Below, piece by piece: positions 1 through 10,446 of a stretch of DNA of 13,338 nt; the stretch's first letter is position 1, and the number at the start of each line of letters is the position of its first letter. The notes beneath the pieces were generated by a model that searched no databases, was not told the origin of the DNA, and saw only the letters and a list, made by a program, of their open reading frames with translations. Origin of the DNA: Oscillospiraceae bacterium. GTDB lineage: Bacteria > Bacillota > Clostridia > Oscillospirales > Oscillospiraceae. The stretch lies in contig JAFXBH010000100.1 in the NCBI GenBank assembly GCA_017521875.1, positions 1 to 13,338 on the forward strand, in the 5' to 3' direction. A program made the translations under genes and the position numbers.

Positions 1-1827
1 ACCGGCCCGGATTTCCCCACCGGCGGTATCATTATGGGCAGATCCGGCATCCGTGCCGCCTACGCCACCGGCCGTGGCAAGGTGGTTGTCCGGGCAAGGA
101 CGGAATTTGAGACCTTTGCAGGCGACCGCACCCGGATCATTGTGACCGAACTGCCTTATCAGGTGAACAAGCGGCAACTGATCAAAAACATTGCCGACCA
201 GGTGAAGGACAAGCGGCTGGAGGGTATTTCCGACCTGCGGGACGAGACCGACCGGAACGGTATGCGGATCGTTATCGAACTGAAAAATGACGCCAACCCT
301 CAAGTGGTGCTGAACACCCTGTTTAAGCAGACCGCTTTGCAAAGTAGTTTCGGCATCATTATGCTGGCCCTGGTGGACGACCAGAAACAACCCAGAATTC
401 TGTCTCTGCGGCAAATCATCGACGAGTACCTCACCTTCCAGATGGAAGTGCTGACCCGTCGGACAGAATTTGACCTGCGGAAAGCAAGAGAACGGGCCCA
501 CCTTTTGGAAGGTCTGCTGATCGCCCAGGACAACATCGACGAAGTGATTCGCATTATCCGTTCCGCTTACGACGACGCCAAGGAGCGTCTGTGTGAGCGG
601 TTCGGCTTGGACGATGTCCAGGCACAGGCCATTTTGGATATGCGTCTGAAAGCCCTGCAAGGTCTGGACAGAGAGAAATTGCAGGCGGAATACAACGAAC
701 TGCAGGAAAAAATCGCTTACTACGAAGACCTGCTGGCCAACAGAGAGAAGTTGCAGGGCGTTCTCCGTGAGGAATTGATCGCCATTCGGGATAAGTTTGG
801 CGACGAAAGAAAGACGGAAATTCAGGAGATCGAGGACGAAATCGACATCGAAGACCTGATTGAAGAGGAGACCTGCGCCTTCACCATCTCCAAGGACGGC
901 TATGTGAAGCGTATGCCCGTGGACATTTACCGCACCCAGAGCCGTGGCGGCCGTGGTGTCAATGCCCAGAATCTGAAGGAAGCAGACTATGTCAAGAGCC
1001 TGTATGTGGCCTCTACCCACGACCATTTGCTGTTCTTCACCGACAAGGGTCGTGTCCACCACCGGAAGGGATATCAGATTCCCGAGGCCGGCCGGACTGC
1101 CCGTGGCACTGCCATGGTGAACATTCTGCCCCTGGAGCAGGGTGAGAGCGTCACTGCCACCGTGGTGACCCGGGAGTTCCACGAAAATGAATTTTTGATG
1201 ATGGTCACCCAGCGGGGTACGGTGAAACGGATTCCCTTTGTGGCCCTCAATACCCGCCGTAAGACAGGTATTCGCGCCATTACTCTGGACGAGGGCGATC
1301 AACTGATCAATGTGATCCGCACCACCGGTGATGACAATATTATTTTGGCTACCCGGGAGGGTATGGCCATCTGCTTCAACGAGAAGGATGTCCGGCCTAT
1401 GGGCAGAGATGCCGCCGGTGTTCGTGGTATTATGTTAACCGGTGAAGACTATGTGATCGGCGCAGAGAAGTGGGAGGATGGCAAGACCCTGCTCACCGTC
1501 ACCGAAAACGGTTTCGGCAAGCGGACAGAACTTTCTGAATACCTGCGTACCGGCCCTGACGGGGAGAAGATTCCCCAGAGTAGAGGCGGTAAGGGTCTGA
1601 AGAACTACAACATCACCTCCAAGACCGGCTGCGTAGCCGGCTGCTGCACCGTAGCAGAAGAGGACGATGTGATGCTGATTGAAAACGGCGGCGTTATCAT
1701 CCGTGTGAAAGCGGCCGGCATTAACATCTACAAGCGGGATGTGCAGGGCGTTATCGTGATGCGCATTGAGGACGGCAACCGATTGGTGGCCATCCAGCGG
1801 GTAGAAGCGGAAGAGGAAGAGGCTTAA
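1..1827 (+). CDS. gyrA: DNA gyrase subunit A, C-terminal part (5' end outside window)
   Basis: GyrA is the DNA-breaking and DNA-wrapping subunit of gyrase (A2B2), which introduces negative supercoils using ATP hydrolysed by GyrB. The reading frame is open from base 1 and begins with the conserved GPDFPTGG segment, so roughly the first 200 residues are missing, including the catalytic tyrosine and the quinolone-resistance region. Visible are the end of the breakage-reunion domain, the long coiled-coil arm (about bases 480-840) and the C-terminal beta-pinwheel. The pinwheel carries a GyrA-box, QSRGGRG (937-957), and a second box-like QSRGGKG (1576-1596). The GyrA-box and the acidic tail EAEEEEA favour GyrA over ParC. 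The TAA stop is immediately followed by the rnhA ATG, so the two genes are probably co-transcribed. The first in-frame ATG in the window (base 34) is internal, not the start. Confidence 0.97.
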   Translation, partial: TGPDFPTGGIIMGRSGIRAAYATGRGKVVVRARTEFETFAGDRTRIIVTELPYQVNKRQLIKNIADQVKDKRLEGISDLRDETDRNGMRIVIELKNDANPQVVLNTLFKQTALQSSFGIIMLALVDDQKQPRILSLRQIIDEYLTFQMEVLTRRTEFDLRKARERAHLLEGLLIAQDNIDEVIRIIRSAYDDAKERLCERFGLDDVQAQAILDMRLKALQGLDREKLQAEYNELQEKIAYYEDLLANREKLQGVLREELIAIRDKFGDERKTEIQEIEDEIDIEDLIEEETCAFTISKDGYVKRMPVDIYRTQSRGGRGVNAQNLKEADYVKSLYVASTHDHLLFFTDKGRVHHRKGYQIPEAGRTARGTAMVNILPLEQGESVTATVVTREFHENEFLMMVTQRGTVKRIPFVALNTRRKTGIRAITLDEGDQLINVIRTTGDDNIILATREGMAICFNEKDVRPMGRDAAGVRGIMLTGEDYVIGAEKWEDGKTLLTVTENGFGKRTELSEYLRTGPDGEKIPQSRGGKGLKNYNITSKTGCVAGCCTVAEEDDVMLIENGGVIIRVKAAGINIYKRDVQGVIVMRIEDGNRLVAIQRVEAEEEEA

Positions 1828-2265
1828 ATGAAAACCGTGACTTTATACACAGATGGCGCTTGTTCCGGCAACCCCGGCCCCGGCGGCTGGGGGGCGATTT
1901 TGGAGTACCAAGGCACAGAAAAAGAACTCTCCGGCGGAGAAAGCAGCACCACCAACAACCGTATGGAACTGACGGCGGTGATCGAAGGTCTGTCTGCCCT
2001 GAAAGAGCCCTGCGTGGTGGAACTGTATTCCGATTCCAAGTATGTGATCGACGGTCTCAGCAAAGGCTGGGCGGAAAGTTGGCGGAAAAACGGCTGGCGC
2101 AAGGCAGACAAAAAACCGGCGCTCAACCCTGACCTGTGGGAAACGCTGTTAAATTTGGTGGAAAAACACCAACTCCGCTACCACTGGGTCAAAGGCCACG
2201 CCGAAAACCCGAAAAATAACCGCTGCGACGAAATGGCAGTTTCAGAGAGTAAGAAATTCTTATAG
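1828..2265 (+). CDS. rnhA: Ribonuclease HI
   Basis: This cytoplasmic endonuclease cleaves the RNA strand of RNA-DNA hybrids, removing primers and R-loops. The 145-residue length is close to the usual ~155 of the E. coli type. The four acidic metal ligands are in place: D9 in YTDGACSGNPGPGGWG, E47 in NNRMEL, D69 in YSDSKYV and D134 in NNRCDEMA. H124 in WVKGHAENP matches the flexible catalytic-loop histidine, and the basic handle (about residues 80-97, rich in W, R and K) is present. The ATG directly follows the gyrA TAA with no gap, implying translational coupling; the purine-rich end of gyrA (GGAAGAGGAAGAGG) can act as ribosome binding site. Pairing with gyrA fits a shared role in topology and R-loop control. 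No terminator hairpin follows; the repeat field begins 10 bp after the stop. Confidence 0.96.
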   Translation: MKTVTLYTDGACSGNPGPGGWGAILEYQGTEKELSGGESSTTNNRMELTAVIEGLSALKEPCVVELYSDSKYVIDGLSKGWAESWRKNGWRKADKKPALNPDLWETLLNLVEKHQLRYHWVKGHAENPKNNRCDEMAVSESKKFL

Positions 2266-2274
2266 AACCCATTT

Positions 2275-2572
2275 GTCATTGCGAGGGCGTCAGCCCGTGG
2301 CAATCTCCCCCTTGTCATTGCGAGGAGCGAAGCGACGCGGCAATCTCCCCATTTGTCATTGCGAGGAGCCGTAGGCGACGCGGTAATCTTAACCAGATTC
2401 CCACGCCAGTGTGAGCACTGGCTCGGAATGACAATGTAGGTGCCGTGTATTCGCTGGCTCGGAATGACAAGGAAACACTATAGATTCCCACGGCTTGCTA
2501 CGCAAGCCTCGGAATGACAACAAGGATAGTACCCCCGTTTGTCATTGCGAGGGCGTCAGCCCGTGGCAATCT
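2275..2572. repeat. Palindromic repeat field 1 (seven copies, two types, both orientations)
   Basis: This 300-bp gene-free stretch is filled by 32-38 bp imperfect palindromes. Type A (GTCATTGCGAG...GGCAATCT) lies forward at 2275-2306, 2314-2346, 2355-2389 (right end mutated to GTAATCT) and 2541-2572. Type B (GTCATTCCGAG...GGGAATCT) lies reversed at 2395-2432 and 2482-2518, with a truncated reversed copy at about 2442-2468. Each copy has an outer stem (ATTGC/GCAAT or ATTCC/GGAAT) and a variable inner hairpin such as GGGC-GTCA-GCCC or GCCAGTG/CACTGGC. Copies 1 and 7 share the same inner hairpin. Their position just after rnhA, which has no other terminator, means they may also influence 3' ends of the gyrA-rnhA transcript. 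Confidence 0.9.
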
Positions 2573-2911
2573 AAGGAGAAAACCAAGTGCAATACTATGT
2601 ATATTTTTTAACTACCAAAGATAATAAAGTATTATATGTTGGCGTAACCAACGATTTGCGGCGCAGAGTGTACGAGCATAAAAACAGTTTGGATAAAAAG
2701 AGTTTTACATCTAGGTATTGTGTAAACAAATTGGTCTATTATGAATATACCGGAGATGTAAATGCCGCCATTGCACGAGAAAAACAAATTAAAAGTTGGA
2801 ACAGAGATCGTAAGAATAGATTGATTGAAAGCAAAAATCCAAATTGGACAGAATTGTATAACAGCATTTTAGAGTAGATTGCCACGGGCGACAAGCCGCC
2901 CTCGCAATGAC
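2541..2911 (+). mobile_element. Putative GIY-YIG cassette bounded by inverted type A repeats
   Basis: The 371-bp unit starts with a forward type A repeat (2541-2572) and ends with a reversed type A repeat (2876-2911), so its ends read GTCATTGCGAGGGCG and CGCCCTCGCAATGAC. Between them is only a 14-nt leader with a ribosome binding site and one gene. The left repeat ends ...GGCAATCT directly before AAGGAG, and the gene's TAG stop shares its last two bases with the right repeat (AGATTGCC...). Other repeat pairs in the window have the same head-to-head polarity with a 14-15 nt spacer where this unit carries the gene. The insert is about 33% G+C against clearly G+C-rich neighbours. Mobility is inferred; no target-site duplication is obvious because the unit lies inside other repeats. 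Confidence 0.55.
2587..2877 (+). CDS. Small GIY-YIG domain endonuclease, repeat-associated
   Basis: This is a 96-residue single-domain GIY-YIG protein, related to the small stand-alone family often named UPF0213/YhbQ-like. The core motif appears as YVY (residues 4-6) and YVG (17-19). It is followed by NDLRRRVYEHK with the conserved Arg (about R27) and H31, and by E65 in AIAREKQIKSW, the expected metal-binding glutamate, so the nuclease centre looks intact. The C-terminal NPNWTELY is typical of the small family. The start is GTG, chosen because AAGGAG at 2573-2578 sits 8 nt upstream and no better in-frame ATG exists. By hand count 95 of 291 bases are G or C (33%), with A-ending codons and AAA/AGA use unlike gyrA or rnhA, which indicates transfer. 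The family is known to nick or cut DNA; a role in moving or maintaining the flanking repeats is inference from position. Confidence 0.9.
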   Translation: MQYYVYFLTTKDNKVLYVGVTNDLRRRVYEHKNSLDKKSFTSRYCVNKLVYYEYTGDVNAAIAREKQIKSWNRDRKNRLIESKNPNWTELYNSILE

Positions 2912-3061
2912 GACAAACCTAACGCGTCATTGCGAGCCAGTCCGCAGACTGGCGTGGGAATCTAATGATTAGTCGTCATTCCGAGGCTTGTGAAACAAGC
3001 CGTGGGAATCTATACTACGGTATTTTAGATTGCCGCGTCGCCTGCGGCACCTCGCAATGAC
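2876..3061. repeat. Palindromic repeat field 2 (four copies, one A/B hybrid)
   Basis: Copies are type A reversed at 2876-2911 (right end of the GIY-YIG cassette), a hybrid at 2926-2963, type B forward at 2975-3011, and type A reversed at 3027-3061. The hybrid begins GTCATTGCGAG like type A but ends GGGAATCT like type B, so one outer-stem base pair is lost. The last two copies form a B-forward/A-reverse composite (2975-3061, 87 bp) with a 15-nt spacer. Inner hairpins include GGCTTGT/ACAAGCC and GCC-TGC-GGC. The field ends 18 bp before the remB start codon, leaving no room for a separate promoter outside the repeats. Confidence 0.88.
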
Positions 3062-3079
3062 AGTAAGGACGGTGTTGAA

Positions 3080-3322
3080 ATGTATCTTCCCATTGGTAAC
3101 GATATGTCTGTGCGGGACAGGGCGATTGTCGGCATCTTTGATATGGACAACACCTCTACCTCCAAACGCACCAGAGAATTTCTGGAACGGGCGGAAAAGG
3201 AGGGCGAAGTGATTCCCTGCGATGACCTGCCGAAAGCCTATATTGTCACCGCAGAATACGGTTTCCGTCGGGTGCATTTATCCGCCCTGAACACCGCAAC
3301 CTTGGAAAAAAGATTAAAATAA
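3080..3322 (+). CDS. remB: RemB-like extracellular matrix regulator (DUF370/YaaB family)
   Basis: This 80-residue protein matches the RemA/RemB (DUF370) family, small DNA-binding proteins that in Bacillus subtilis promote biofilm matrix gene expression. It starts with the family signature MYLPIGNDMSV, then AIVGIFDMDNTS, and ends with KAYIVTAEYGFRRVHLSALNTATLEKRL; the MYIHLGDD-like start and the 'SPLSSSTLKKR'-like end point to RemB (YaaB) rather than RemA. AAGGA at 3065-3069 lies upstream of the ATG at a usable distance. In Bacillus remB sits between recF and gyrB; here it lies downstream of gyrA and rnhA, separated from them by the repeat fields. Transcription probably depends on read-through from gyrA-rnhA or on a promoter inside the repeats. 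The regulatory role in this organism is inferred from the family. Confidence 0.85.
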   Translation: MYLPIGNDMSVRDRAIVGIFDMDNTSTSKRTREFLERAEKEGEVIPCDDLPKAYIVTAEYGFRRVHLSALNTATLEKRLK

Positions 3323-6155: not shown

Positions 6156-6523
6156 CCTTTTACTGTCATTCCGAGGCTTGCTATGCAAGCCGTGGGAATC
6201 TGTTATGTTTCGTTGTCATTCCGAGCCAGTGCTCACACTGGCGTGGGAATCTGTTATGTTTCGTTGTCATTCCGAGCCAGTGCTCACACTGGCGTGGGAA
6301 TCTACATTACTGACTTTAGATTGCCACGGGCTAACGCTCCTCGCAATGACAAGGGGGTGAGATTGCCACGGGCTGACGCCCTCGCAATGACAAAGAAGGG
6401 AACCCCTTTTACTGTCATTCCGAGGCTTGCTATGCAAGCCGTGGGAATCTGTTATGTTTCGTTGTCATTCCGAGCCAGTGCTCACACTGGCGTGGGAATC
6501 TACATTACTGACTTTAGATTGCC
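6155..6523 (+). repeat. Internal direct duplication within repeat field 3
   Basis: The block 6155-6325 recurs at 6404-6523, identical as far as read by eye except that the first block carries one extra 51-bp unit. The two copies of that unit (repeat starts 6215 and 6266) appear identical, each a type B repeat plus the spacer GTTATGTTTCGTT. This indicates recent unequal exchange or slippage within the field. Confidence 0.8.
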
Positions 6524-6548
6524 GCGTCGCTGCGCTCCTCGCAATGAC
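6165..6548. repeat. Palindromic repeat field 3 (eight copies)
   Basis: The copies are type B forward at 6165-6201, 6215-6252, 6266-6303, 6414-6450 and 6464-6501, and type A reversed at 6318-6350, 6360-6391 and 6516-6548. Inner hairpins are GGCTTGC/GCAAGCC or GCCAGTG/CACTGGC in type B and short GAGC- or GCCC-based ones in type A. Copies 6266-6350 and 6464-6548 are B-forward/A-reverse composites of exactly 85 bp with the same 14-nt spacer, ACATTACTGACTTT. The field fills the gap between the divergent aldolase and prfC genes. Apparent reading frames across it are translations of the repeats. Confidence 0.9.
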
Positions 6549-6708: not shown

Positions 6709-8301
6709 ATGTCAACTTTAGAAGAAGAAATCAGCCGCCGTCGGACATTTGCCATCATCTCTCACCCCGATGCCGGTAAAACCACTTTAACGGAAAAATT
6801 CCTGCTGTACGGCGGCGCCATCGCCCAGGCCGGCGTGGTCAAGGGTAAGAAAAACTCCCGGGCGGCCACCTCTGACTGGATGGAGATCGAAAAACAGAGA
6901 GGTATCTCTGTCACATCTTCTGTGATGCAGTTCCAGTACGGCGGATTCTGCATTAACATTCTGGACACCCCCGGCCACCAGGACTTCTCGGAAGATACCT
7001 ACCGTACCCTGATGGCAGCGGATGCTGCGGTCATGGTCATCGACGGCGCCAAGGGCGTGGAGCCCCAGACCCGGAAACTGTTCAAAGTTTGCGCTATGCG
7101 GCACATTCCCATCTTCACCTTTGTGAACAAAATGGACCGGGAGACCCAGGATCCCTTCGACCTGCTTGACGAAGTGGAACGGGAACTGGGCATTGAGACC
7201 TACGCTATGAACTGGCCCATCGGCAGCGGCAAGGATTTTCAGGGCGTGTACGACCGGGAAAAGAGCCAACTGCTGTTCTTCTCCGGTGTCAACGGCAAAG
7301 CCAAGGCGGATAAAATGGCGGTGGATCTGTACGATCCCCAGGTGGCAGTGCTGTTGGATTCTGAAAGCAAGCATCAGCAACTGATCGATGATGTGGAACT
7401 GCTGTCCGCCGGTCGGGAAATGGATATGGAAGCGGTGCGCAACGGTGGGTTGTCCCCGGTGTTCTTTGGCTCTGCGCTGACCAATTTCGGCATTGAGCCG
7501 TTTTTGGAGAACTTCCTGAAACTGACCCCGCCCCCTCTGTCTAGAGTGGCGGATTGCGGTGAAATCGATACTTTTTCCCCGGATTTTTCCGCATTTGTGT
7601 TCAAAATCCAGGCAAATATGAACAAAGCCCACCGAGACCGTCTGGCATTTATGCGGATCTGTTCCGGTAAATTCCAGCGGGATACGGAGTATTACCATAT
7701 GCAGGGCGGCCGGAAAATGCGGCTTTCCCAGCCCCAGCAACTGATGGCTGCGGAGCGGGAGATCGTGGACGAAGCCTACGCCGGTGACGTGATCGGCGTG
7801 TTCGACCCGGGCATTTTCTCCATTGGCGATACCATTACCGTGCCGGGTAAGAAATTCCTCTATTCCGGCATTCCCACCTTTGCGCCCGAGCATTTCTGCC
7901 GGGTTTCCGCCAAGGATTCCATGAAGCGGAAGCAGTTCGTCAAGGGTACGGAGCAGATCGCCCAAGAGGGTGCAATCCAGATCTTCAAAGTCCCCAATTC
8001 CGGTATGGAAGAGGTGATCGTGGGCGTGGTGGGTACGCTGCAGTTTGAGGTATTCCAGTACCGGATGAAGAACGAGTACGGCGTGGATCTGCGGATGGAT
8101 ATGCTGCCGTATGAGGAAATCCGCCTGATCGAAAGTTACCCCGGCGACCTGACGGATCTGAATTTGGGCAGCGATGCGGAACTGCTGGAAGACTACCGTG
8201 GTCGGAATCTACTGGTATTCAGCAGTTTTTGGGCCATTGATTTCACCTGCAAGCGGAATCCCGGTCTGAAACTTCGGGAAATCGTTGTAGAAGAAGGCTA
8301 A
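6709..8301 (+). CDS. prfC: Peptide chain release factor 3
   Basis: RF3 is a cytoplasmic translational GTPase that removes RF1 and RF2 from the ribosome after peptide release. The 530 residues match the family (~529). GTPase motifs are G1 SHPDAGKTT (18-26), G2 with T69 in GISVTSS, G3 DTPGH (86-90), G4 NKMD (140-143) and G5 around GSAL (254-257). The G-domain is followed by domain II (about 290-390, with FKIQANMNKAHRDR and the SGKF segment) and the RF3-specific C-terminal domain. RF3 is told from EF-G by the short length and by SDWMEIEKQRGISV. The start is supported by GGAGGG (6698-6703) 5 nt upstream. It is a single-gene unit behind a leader with a possible regulatory peptide and ends at a hairpin terminator. 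Confidence 0.96.
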   Translation: MSTLEEEISRRRTFAIISHPDAGKTTLTEKFLLYGGAIAQAGVVKGKKNSRAATSDWMEIEKQRGISVTSSVMQFQYGGFCINILDTPGHQDFSEDTYRTLMAADAAVMVIDGAKGVEPQTRKLFKVCAMRHIPIFTFVNKMDRETQDPFDLLDEVERELGIETYAMNWPIGSGKDFQGVYDREKSQLLFFSGVNGKAKADKMAVDLYDPQVAVLLDSESKHQQLIDDVELLSAGREMDMEAVRNGGLSPVFFGSALTNFGIEPFLENFLKLTPPPLSRVADCGEIDTFSPDFSAFVFKIQANMNKAHRDRLAFMRICSGKFQRDTEYYHMQGGRKMRLSQPQQLMAAEREIVDEAYAGDVIGVFDPGIFSIGDTITVPGKKFLYSGIPTFAPEHFCRVSAKDSMKRKQFVKGTEQIAQEGAIQIFKVPNSGMEEVIVGVVGTLQFEVFQYRMKNEYGVDLRMDMLPYEEIRLIESYPGDLTDLNLGSDAELLEDYRGRNLLVFSSFWAIDFTCKRNPGLKLREIVVEEG

Positions 8302-8302
8302 A

Positions 8303-8332
8303 AAATCCCGGCGGCGTATTCCGCCGGGATTT
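8303..8332 (+). terminator. Terminator of prfC
   Basis: AAATCCCGGCGG (8303-8314) pairs perfectly over 12 bp with CCGCCGGGATTT (8321-8332) around a 6-nt loop, 1 bp after the stop codon. The T tract is short, so termination may be partial. Confidence 0.75.
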
Positions 8333-8335
8333 CTA

Positions 8336-8474
8336 ATGTATAATTGAAAATGGAAAATGTATAATGGATGTGTCGGCTTTGCCGACAGATTCAAATCATC
8401 GCTGTAAGCGATACAACAATTTTCAATTTTCAATTCTCCATTCTCAATTATCCATTCTCCATTTTCAATTTTTT
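8336..8474. repeat. MITE-like A+T-rich element with two-hairpin core (copy 1)
   Basis: Imperfect inverted arms made of AATTGAAAATGG-like units (left about 8340-8368, right about 8416-8474) flank a core. The core has hairpin 1, TGTCGGC-TTT-GCCGACA (8371-8387), a 10-nt linker, and hairpin 2, ATCGCT-GTA-AGCGAT (8398-8412). The right arm is longer than the left and contains several CAATTCTCCATT-like units. The same architecture with different arm sequence recurs at 10308-10420. It fills the gap between the prfC terminator and the pit promoter. No coding sequence is present. Confidence 0.7.
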
Positions 8475-8475
8475 A

Positions 8476-8504
8476 TTGACGGGTGGGCGGAGGTATAGTA
8501 CAAT
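8476..8504 (+). promoter_or_regulatory. Sigma-A promoter of pit-DUF47
   Basis: TTGACG (8476-8481), a 17-bp spacer and TACAAT (8499-8504) give five of six consensus bases in each box. It begins directly after the MITE-like element's right arm and leaves a leader of about 50 nt before pit. Confidence 0.85.
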
Positions 8505-10266: not shown

Positions 10267-10307
10267 TAAAAAATTCCCGGCGGTGTGCCCGCCGGGAATT
10301 TTTTATC
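10265..10307 (+). terminator. Terminator of the pit operon
   Basis: This is a perfect 19-bp stem (10265-10283 with 10289-10307) with a 5-nt loop; the G+C core CCCGGCGG/CCGCCGGG is flanked by A and T runs. It overlaps the stop codon of the DUF47 gene. The paired A/T runs make it potentially bidirectional. Confidence 0.93.
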
Positions 10308-10420
10308 AATGCATAATGCATAATTCATAATGCATAATGAATGTGTCGCTTTGCGACACAATTTAATCATTGCCGGAGGCAATACCATAATTATGCATTC
10401 AGCATTCTGCATTCTGCATT
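10308..10420. repeat. MITE-like A+T-rich element with two-hairpin core (copy 2)
   Basis: Inverted arms are built from ATGCATAATGCATAA-like units on the left (10308-10340) and ATTCTGCATT-like units on the right (about 10386-10420). The core has hairpin 1, TGTGTCGC-TTT-GCGACACA (10342-10360), a short linker AT-TTAATC, and hairpin 2, ATTGCC-GGA-GGCAAT (10369-10383). Stem lengths, loop sizes and linker match copy 1 at 8336-8474 although arms and stem bases differ. It lies exactly between two terminators, with no gene. Confidence 0.7.
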
Positions 10421-10421
10421 A

Positions 10422-10446
10422 AAAAACCGCCCTTGGGGCGGTTTTT
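10422..10446 (-). terminator. Terminator of the amidohydrolase gene
   Basis: AAAAACCGCCC (10422-10432) pairs with GGGCGGTTTTT (10436-10446) around a 3-nt loop. On the minus strand it lies 6 bp beyond the stop codon at 10453 and ends in a run of six T. Confidence 0.88.

Follow-up and report, generated by a model that had tools for sequence, protein, structure and literature searches.

The locus described here raises the question of why the gene of a small GIY-YIG nuclease lies exactly between two inverted copies of a palindromic repeat, and whether the enzyme acts on the repeats that surround it. The origin of the short palindromic repeats scattered through many bacterial genomes has been an open question. 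A sequence-only reading of the same DNA had proposed that the nuclease recognizes the palindromes and spreads or maintains them, and this proposal is followed up here. Throughout, the window is the full stretch of 13,338 nt, corresponding to contig C159 of genome G000, and the names of neighboring genes (gyrA, rnhA, etc.) were assigned by recognition from the translated ORFs. The features of the locus are collected in Table 1.

Table 1. Nuclease gene, repeats, and repeat islands in the window
Feature	Position	Strand	Basis
Type A repeat	2275..2306	+	repeat comparison, pattern
Type A repeat	2314..2346	+	repeat comparison, pattern
Diverged type A repeat, missed by the pattern GTCATTSCGAN{5,30}GSAATC	2355..2389	+	repeat comparison, sequence
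Type B repeat (GTC-ATTCC...GGAAT-CT)	2395..2432	-	repeat comparison, pattern
Type B repeat	2482..2518	-	repeat comparison, pattern
Type A repeat GTCATTGCGAGGGCGTCAGCCCGTGGCAATCT (GTC-ATTGC...GCAAT-CT), upstream frame of the gene, hairpin-folding	2541..2572	+	sequence, pattern, fold
AAGGAGA, likely ribosome binding site	2573..2579	+	sequence
Gene of the 96-aa GIY-YIG nuclease, starting with GTG, its TAG stop lying partly within the downstream repeat	2587..2877	+	ORF and domain match
Type A repeat, inverted (AGATTGCC...CAATGAC), downstream frame, overlapping the stop codon	2876..2911	-	sequence, pattern, fold
Hybrid repeat, A left end and B right end	2926..2963	+	pattern
Type B repeat	2975..3011	+	pattern, fold
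Type A repeat, final unit of the nuclease island	3027..3061	-	pattern
814-bp island separating rnhA from the following ORF (nuclease gene, repeats, short spacers)	2266..3079	.	alignment to G135
Second repeat island, eight A/B units, without a nuclease gene	6165..6548	.	pattern
Third repeat island, five units, reaching the contig end	13117..13338	.	pattern

The 96-residue protein, read from a GTG start at 2587 to a TAG stop at 2875-2877, belongs to the GIY-YIG nuclease superfamily, matching the Pfam model PF01541 with 63.9 bits (cut-off 22.6). In an alignment of 90 rows, Y6, Y17, G19, R27, and E65 are present in all rows and N84 in 89, the one other row ending earlier. These six are the likely catalytic residues, and they are intact in the window's protein, as judged previously. 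The G+C content of the gene is 32.6%, compared with 52.8% for the window and 55.1% for gyrA, in line with the earlier estimate of about 33% in G+C-rich surroundings. More specific assignments were also considered and rejected, namely a phage homing endonuclease (best PHROGs match only E 1e-4, and 0 matches in 50,697 phage records at E 1e-10), a defence nuclease (PADLOC match at only E 3e-4, covering part of the protein), and a group I intron endonuclease (NCBIfam 24.7 bits, with a cut-off of 56.05).

Folded as single strands, repeats of types A and B give the same hairpin, and it is a compensating change in the outer stem that sets the two types apart. Of 230 repeat heads, 185 have T and 36 have C before GTCA, and the outer stems are mostly ATTGC and ATTCC. 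The framing of the gene by two inverted type A repeats (2541-2572 and 2876-2911), pointed out previously, holds to the base: the forward repeat ends at 2572 and AAGGAGA follows directly from 2573, while the stop codon at 2875-2877 and the downstream repeat, which starts at 2876, share two bases.

The pattern GTCATTSCGAN{5,30}GSAATC, used for the genome-wide count, has 81 copies in the window's genome, located on 18 of the 319 contigs, and the control, the same pattern read backwards, has 0 copies there. The analysis of neighboring repeats covers 78 of the 81 copies, three lone copies being omitted. Inverted neighbors are head-to-head in 23 cases and tail-to-tail in 6; a further 27 neighbors are in direct orientation because the repeats are clustered. 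All 23 head-to-head pairs lie within 120 nt, and 17 of them have 16-17 nt between the pattern ends, which becomes 14-15 nt if the final T is included in each repeat, so that the head-to-head spacing of 14-15 nt noted earlier applies to 17 of the 23 pairs. However, each of the 23 close pairs is an A/B heterodimer (GTCATTGC with GTCATTCC), whereas the pair that frames the gene is A/A. The short pairs are therefore not simply the framed unit minus the gene, and the suggestion that they are its non-autonomous derivatives is not upheld.

It should be considered here whether the arrangement could be a matter of chance or an assembly artifact, in which the repeat-rich ends of metagenome contigs were joined around a stray gene. 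The host assembly is indeed metagenome-like and fragmented (1.66 Mb in 319 contigs, 82% complete, 5.4% contamination), and it contains a second short gyrA fragment on contig C260. Such an origin is nevertheless extremely improbable: the same arrangement is found in complete plasmid records of Azospirillum and Sphingobium and in the one-contig genome G078, the window's gyrA is 82% identical to that of G135, a genome of the same genus, and the general pattern stands without the window's locus. The fragment itself (G000:C260:5060-5155) is the beginning of another gyrA, which matches that of the window with 91% identity over 32 residues and is located on a contig that also bears repeats; it likely reflects a mixture of strains in the assembly.

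A scan of one genome per species gave at least 537 relatives of the nuclease, the best 80 of which were kept. Together with 11 loci from a search of the window's family they constitute a close set of 91 loci in 16 phylum-level groups, where the phylum labels of metagenome bins can be wrong. Repeats were located by a general motif, consisting of GTCA, a 5-nt arm, its exact complement, and C, within 75 nt; a stricter 7-bp motif missed many repeats because the outer stem often has only 5 bp. Flanks could be judged in 88 of the 91 loci, one partial gene and two short flanks being dropped. A motif lies within 150 nt of 81 of the 88 close homologues, compared with 28 of 148 control ORFs from the same loci and 1 of 18 distant GIY-YIG paralogues. 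On both sides it is present in 52 of 88, 3 of 148, and 0 of 18, respectively. The comparison of homologues with control genes, suggested by the sequence-only reading, thus comes out in its favor. In the two-sided loci the motifs are inverted as in the window in 34 cases, inverted the opposite way in 10, and in the same direction in 8.

Seven of the 88 have no GTCA motif within 150 nt. As the motif demands GTCA, repeats of the GTCG type are scored as absent in these flank counts and in the motif densities, which amount to 6.9 per kb in the vicinity of the gene, 0.41 in the remainder of these loci, and 0.12 after shuffling (one locus being still reverse-oriented). The hairpin stem is not an artifact of the search, since 212 of 449 heads near nuclease genes have their own arm complement, compared with a mean of 40 when the arms are permuted. 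In 8 of the 91 loci (L004, L043, L051, L054, L065, L074, L081, and L092) the downstream repeat runs into the stop codon of the nuclease gene or directly adjoins it, TAGATT being the commonest form. Together with the genome counts and class comparisons given below, these results support an association of nuclease and repeats that is real, widespread, and specific, and the package of a nuclease gene with its matching repeat spans many bacterial phyla. At the level of the 5-nt stem, the type changes 30 times on the nuclease tree, compared with 42.5 after shuffling, but between phyla it does not follow nuclease similarity, the nearest cross-phylum neighbor having the same stem type in 24 of 83 cases, with 21.8 expected.

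Homologues in plasmid records (37-65% identity) have the motif near the gene in 5 of 8 cases. The other three, L128, L129, and L130, have no GTCA motif near the gene; in L128 a GTCG variant frames the gene, as judged by eye, and L129 and L130 are without repeats of such kind. One plasmid homologue with 65% identity (L131, Planktothrix plasmid p1) has an MmeI-type restriction enzyme on one side and a DISARM helicase gene on the other and lies among repeats of the GTCATTCTGAG type. Two of the records filed as plasmids are chromosome-sized, NZ_CP119140.1 (N. gonorrhoeae, 2.2 Mb) and NZ_AP026896.1 (A. caviae, 4.9 Mb). The GIY-YIG proteins of the UPF0213 type (PDB 1zg2, E 8e-4) have the same catalytic domain and a similar size, but three aligned distant paralogues lack the conserved N/W tail, and the distant paralogues are unframed, as the flank count above indicates.

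The pairing of a GIY-YIG nuclease with a repeat is itself probably already known, although the earlier note was aware of no description. In the Ssn family of Neisseria (Nature Communications, 2025), GIY-YIG nucleases reportedly cleave a repeated sequence in single-stranded DNA and have an effect on transformation, and homologues are reported from elsewhere. A gonococcal ORF, in a chromosome-sized record, with 46.3% identity to the window's nuclease and the same N..W.D tail of the subfamily is found among dRS3-like GTCATTCCCGCG...CGGGAATC repeats, one of which starts 3 bases past the stop codon, and we infer that this ORF is Ssn itself. The likeness consists in this homology and in a small GIY-YIG protein with a cognate repeat at the gene and in many genomic copies, 81 in the window's genome. 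The window differs in having two repeat types and a host that, judging by the nearest named homologues, probably belongs in or close to the Oscillospiraceae, and cleavage is proposed here from homology. To our knowledge, neither the gain of the unit nor the matching of classes is part of the Ssn paper. Among the literature titles listed, none links GIY-YIG nucleases with REP, REPIN, dRS3, RAYT, or palindromic repeats.

The Ssn precedent suggests an alternative in which the nuclease recognizes and cuts the repeats without spreading them. As is reported for Ssn, it would police DNA that enters the cell or is single-stranded, and would restrict or direct recombination where repeats flank a region, and the repeats would multiply by other means. 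The position of the gonococcal homologue among dRS3-like repeats is in its favor, and the numbers of repeats per genome bear on it in both directions. In the window's family (150 genomes), at least ten repeats are present in 11 of 11 carriers of the close gene and in 9 of the 139 others (Fisher 1.1e-11, with genomes treated as independent though related). In the alphaproteobacterial family (the family of G160, reached via a Bradyrhizobium-labelled locus; 149 genomes), at least ten repeats of two classes occur in 94 of the 108 genomes that match the nuclease strongly, compared with 17 of the 41 that match it weakly or not at all; for the first repeat class alone the numbers are 45 of 108 and 5 of 41. 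Among the genomes of this family, G697, G688, and G704 have 68 to 262 repeats of the two classes and no strong nuclease match, which makes them candidates for a lost or strongly diverged partner.

The correlation of repeat number with the gene, another comparison suggested at the outset, is thus only partly as anticipated: all carriers in the window's family are repeat-rich, but so are 9 of 139 and 17 of 41 genomes without the close gene. The sequence-only reading had itself named abundant repeats without the gene as evidence against its proposal, and this is what these genomes show in part. Such persistence counts against a strict dependence of the repeats on the nuclease and is in favor of the policing alternative. 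On the other hand, nine genera have a second species sampled, and the close gene is present in 0 of their 10 sister genomes, whose repeat counts are 0, 0, 0, 0, 0, 0, 1, 1, 10, and 33, each below that of the carrier of its genus (10 to 122). The near absence of repeats (0-1) in 8 of these 10 is more than policing predicts. We regard policing alone as a real possibility, if one that we would rather bet against.

The repeats resemble the CGTC-tagged REPs. In the published description of the latter (Di Nocera 2013, PMC3733652), they have a CGTC or TGTC tag, a stem of 8-9 bp starting with complementary AT, and a short tail, occur mostly as head-to-head dimers, with heterodimers predominant in two families, include dRS3 of Neisseria and the rickettsial RPE, and are distributed over 5 phyla, predominantly in alphaproteobacteria; no associated enzyme is reported there, and the repeats are described as apparently without a dedicated transposase and not associated with transposase genes. 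The window's repeats match the tag, the AT-first stem, and the short tail as given there. They differ in that their units, with a 5-bp outer stem and an inner hairpin, are longer than the published families. In addition, repeats of this kind are seen here together with a partner nuclease, and they extend to Bacillota and further phyla. A large group of so far orphan repeats thereby gains a candidate partner enzyme. The RAYT enzymes with their REP/REPIN sequences offer a further likeness, their gene being flanked by palindromic repeats scattered through the genome. The present nuclease was rejected as a RAYT, its fold being GIY-YIG rather than HUH tyrosine and its tag GTC rather than GTAG, and no joining chemistry is known for the GIY-YIG system.

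Genomes of the alphaproteobacterial family often carry several nucleases, which allows specificity to be followed class by class. Among the matches listed, 99 loci from 39 genomes were analyzed, with one further locus, from another phylum, set aside and a few multi-match genomes, G579, G595, and G702 among them, not included; both GTCA and GTCG were accepted in the flank counts. The framing is inverted as in the window in 48 of the 99 loci, and 20 have no motif within 150 nt. The same 5-nt arm is found on both sides in 31 of the 48 framed loci, and in the 16 genomes with more than one framed locus the arms match in 26 of 39, compared with a mean of 13.9 and a maximum of 24 when shuffled within genomes.

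Four repeat classes were set by loop and length, after viewing the repeats but not the nucleases, which left 62 of the 99 loci for analysis, as 36 fell into no class and one contained a stop. On the tree of these 62 nucleases the class changes 5 times, the minimum being 3, while 300 within-genome shuffles give a mean of 20.2 and a lowest value of 10, 0 of 300 being as low. Pairs without homologous outer flanks have the same class in 43 of 43 cases at 75% identity or more and in 214 of 226 at 65-75%, and for 58 of 62 nucleases the class agrees with that of the closest relative from a different genome and a non-homologous site, the expected fraction being 0.35; paralogue pairs within a genome have a common class in 13 of 44. 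A match of classes at non-homologous sites is not explained by common ancestry of the insertion site. Every clade of nucleases in this family has a repeat class of its own. Genome-wide repeat counts, with genomes treated as independent, weakly show a crossed specificity: the best score for a long-class nuclease rises with the number of long-class repeats (rho 0.24, P 0.011) but is unrelated to that of the other class (-0.02), and the score for an other-class nuclease correlates with its own repeats (rho 0.27, P 0.0055) and not with the long class (-0.06).

This matching bears on the idea that the nuclease is a hitchhiker, i.e. that an unrelated enzyme, such as an IS200-like transposase or a filamentous-phage recombinase, spreads the repeats and that the AT-rich gene is cargo that landed between two of them. 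The gene does have a G+C content more than 5 points below that of its outer flanks in 84 of the 91 close loci (median 12 points), and the repeats also occur without it. But mere cargo would leave the correspondence of nuclease clade and repeat class unexplained, a correspondence examined for the nuclease family alone, as well as the unframed state of the distant GIY-YIG paralogues; the report on CGTC repeats (Di Nocera 2013, PMC3733652), which finds them not associated with transposase genes, also speaks against it. We consider hitchhiking improbable.

Empty sites in relatives, a further comparison that the sequence-only reading had called for, were found in three lineages. In the window's own genus, the G135 locus L124 has 4 bp between the rnhA stop and the start codon that comes next (TGA at 2842-2844, ATG at 2849), where the window has 814 bp; in the alignment, window positions 1-2258 correspond to 578-2834 of L124 and 3071-3313 to 2840-3082. 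Neither G135 nor G049, both of the same genus as the window, has a nuclease match or the repeat pattern. In Azospirillum lipoferum, sufB and sufC are separated by the nuclease gene and the repeats to either side of it, and 4 relatives have sufB-sufC without the gene. In Sphingobium plasmids, the gene is found in inverted 25-nt repeats between fnrL and a regulator gene in six cases, with a frameshifted copy in a seventh, and TomTYG46 has its right-hand repeat minus part of the tag; four other plasmids have the site without the nuclease gene. In trees of the Sphingobium site (eight rows), the filled sites group together among the empty ones (fnrL 100/99, regulator gene 91/100), and gain is therefore the simpler reading. 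Taken together, these observations support the gain of gene and repeats as one block.

The empty site of TomTYG64 contains one perfect palindrome, made of the left half of one framing repeat and the right half of the other, and TomTYG74 has a near-perfect version of it. Such a palindrome would fit an insertion into, or a clean excision to, a repeat. It raises the possibility of a true site-specific mobile element, in which enzyme and framing repeats would transpose as one, existing repeats serving as targets and the gene-less pairs as passengers, as with RAYT and REPINs. The empty sites in the three lineages and the position of the filled Sphingobium sites on the trees agree with this, as does the finding that nucleases 65-85% alike are mostly at different sites, with a common outer flank in 41 of 518 pairs (18 of 86 at 75-85% and 23 of 432 at 65-75% identity).

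However, inspection of the two alignments by eye reveals no evident target-site duplication, and the fused palindrome is absent from the other two Sphingobium empty sites, the Azospirillum empty sites, and the sister site of the window; empty sites are clear in all three lineages, but only in Sphingobium do the ends coincide with the repeats by eye. At 85% identity or more, 7 of 8 nuclease pairs have homologous outer flanks, which shows that the unit is also inherited in place. The A/B composition of the short pairs, set against the A/A frame, does not suit their role as passengers, and we know of no end-joining activity of GIY-YIG enzymes. We consider a mobile element of this kind possible but doubtful. 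As no end joining is known, any spreading would be homing-like, via host repair.

The reading that we prefer, with a probability of about 0.7, is that the nuclease targets the hairpin repeats around it, the nuclease and its own repeat class being one heritable and insertable unit. Both parts, the presumed recognition of the repeats and the joint travel, appear well supported by the comparisons above. The enzyme would be a small GIY-YIG endonuclease whose targets are REPs of the CGTC kind, with an unpaired GTC, an outer stem that begins with AT or GT, an inner hairpin or loop, and a tail C. The unit would consist of the gene between two inverted repeat copies, with more copies of the same class scattered in the genome. 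By homology, and in the manner reported for Ssn, the nuclease would nick repeats that are single-stranded or form an extruded hairpin while DNA is replicated, taken up, or repaired. More speculatively, nicks at the two inverted copies might trigger repair or recombination by which the unit, or its repeats, would be copied to other sites. The initial proposal of recognition together with spreading or maintenance is thereby retained in part: the association, the class specificity, and the gain as a block speak for it, while the fact that the short pairs are not A/A speaks against it.

A broader version, to which we would give just short of even odds, is that a second, GIY-YIG-based REP system exists in many phyla. 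It would comprise co-evolving pairs, several per genome, in which each nuclease spreads itself and its own class of hairpin by nicking matching hairpins with the help of host repair, new copies landing in existing repeat palindromes, and the nuclease would then be the missing enzyme of the CGTC-tagged REPs. The filled and empty strain pairs in Azospirillum and Sphingobium make the question directly testable. If the pairing is by recognition, the loci also constitute a catalogue of natural nuclease-target pairs.

Other inverted repeats were observed elsewhere in the window. Two AT-rich arrays at 8335-8477 and 10302-10426 contain inverted repeats that differ from the GTCATT repeats, their units being of the kind ATTTTCAATTTTCAATTCTCCATT and ATGCATAATTCATAATGCATAATGAAT. 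At 8299-8332 and 10272-10305, just past ORFs ending at 8301 and 10266, lie two G+C-rich, terminator-like hairpins that resemble each other (71% alike in direct and 74% in inverted comparison).
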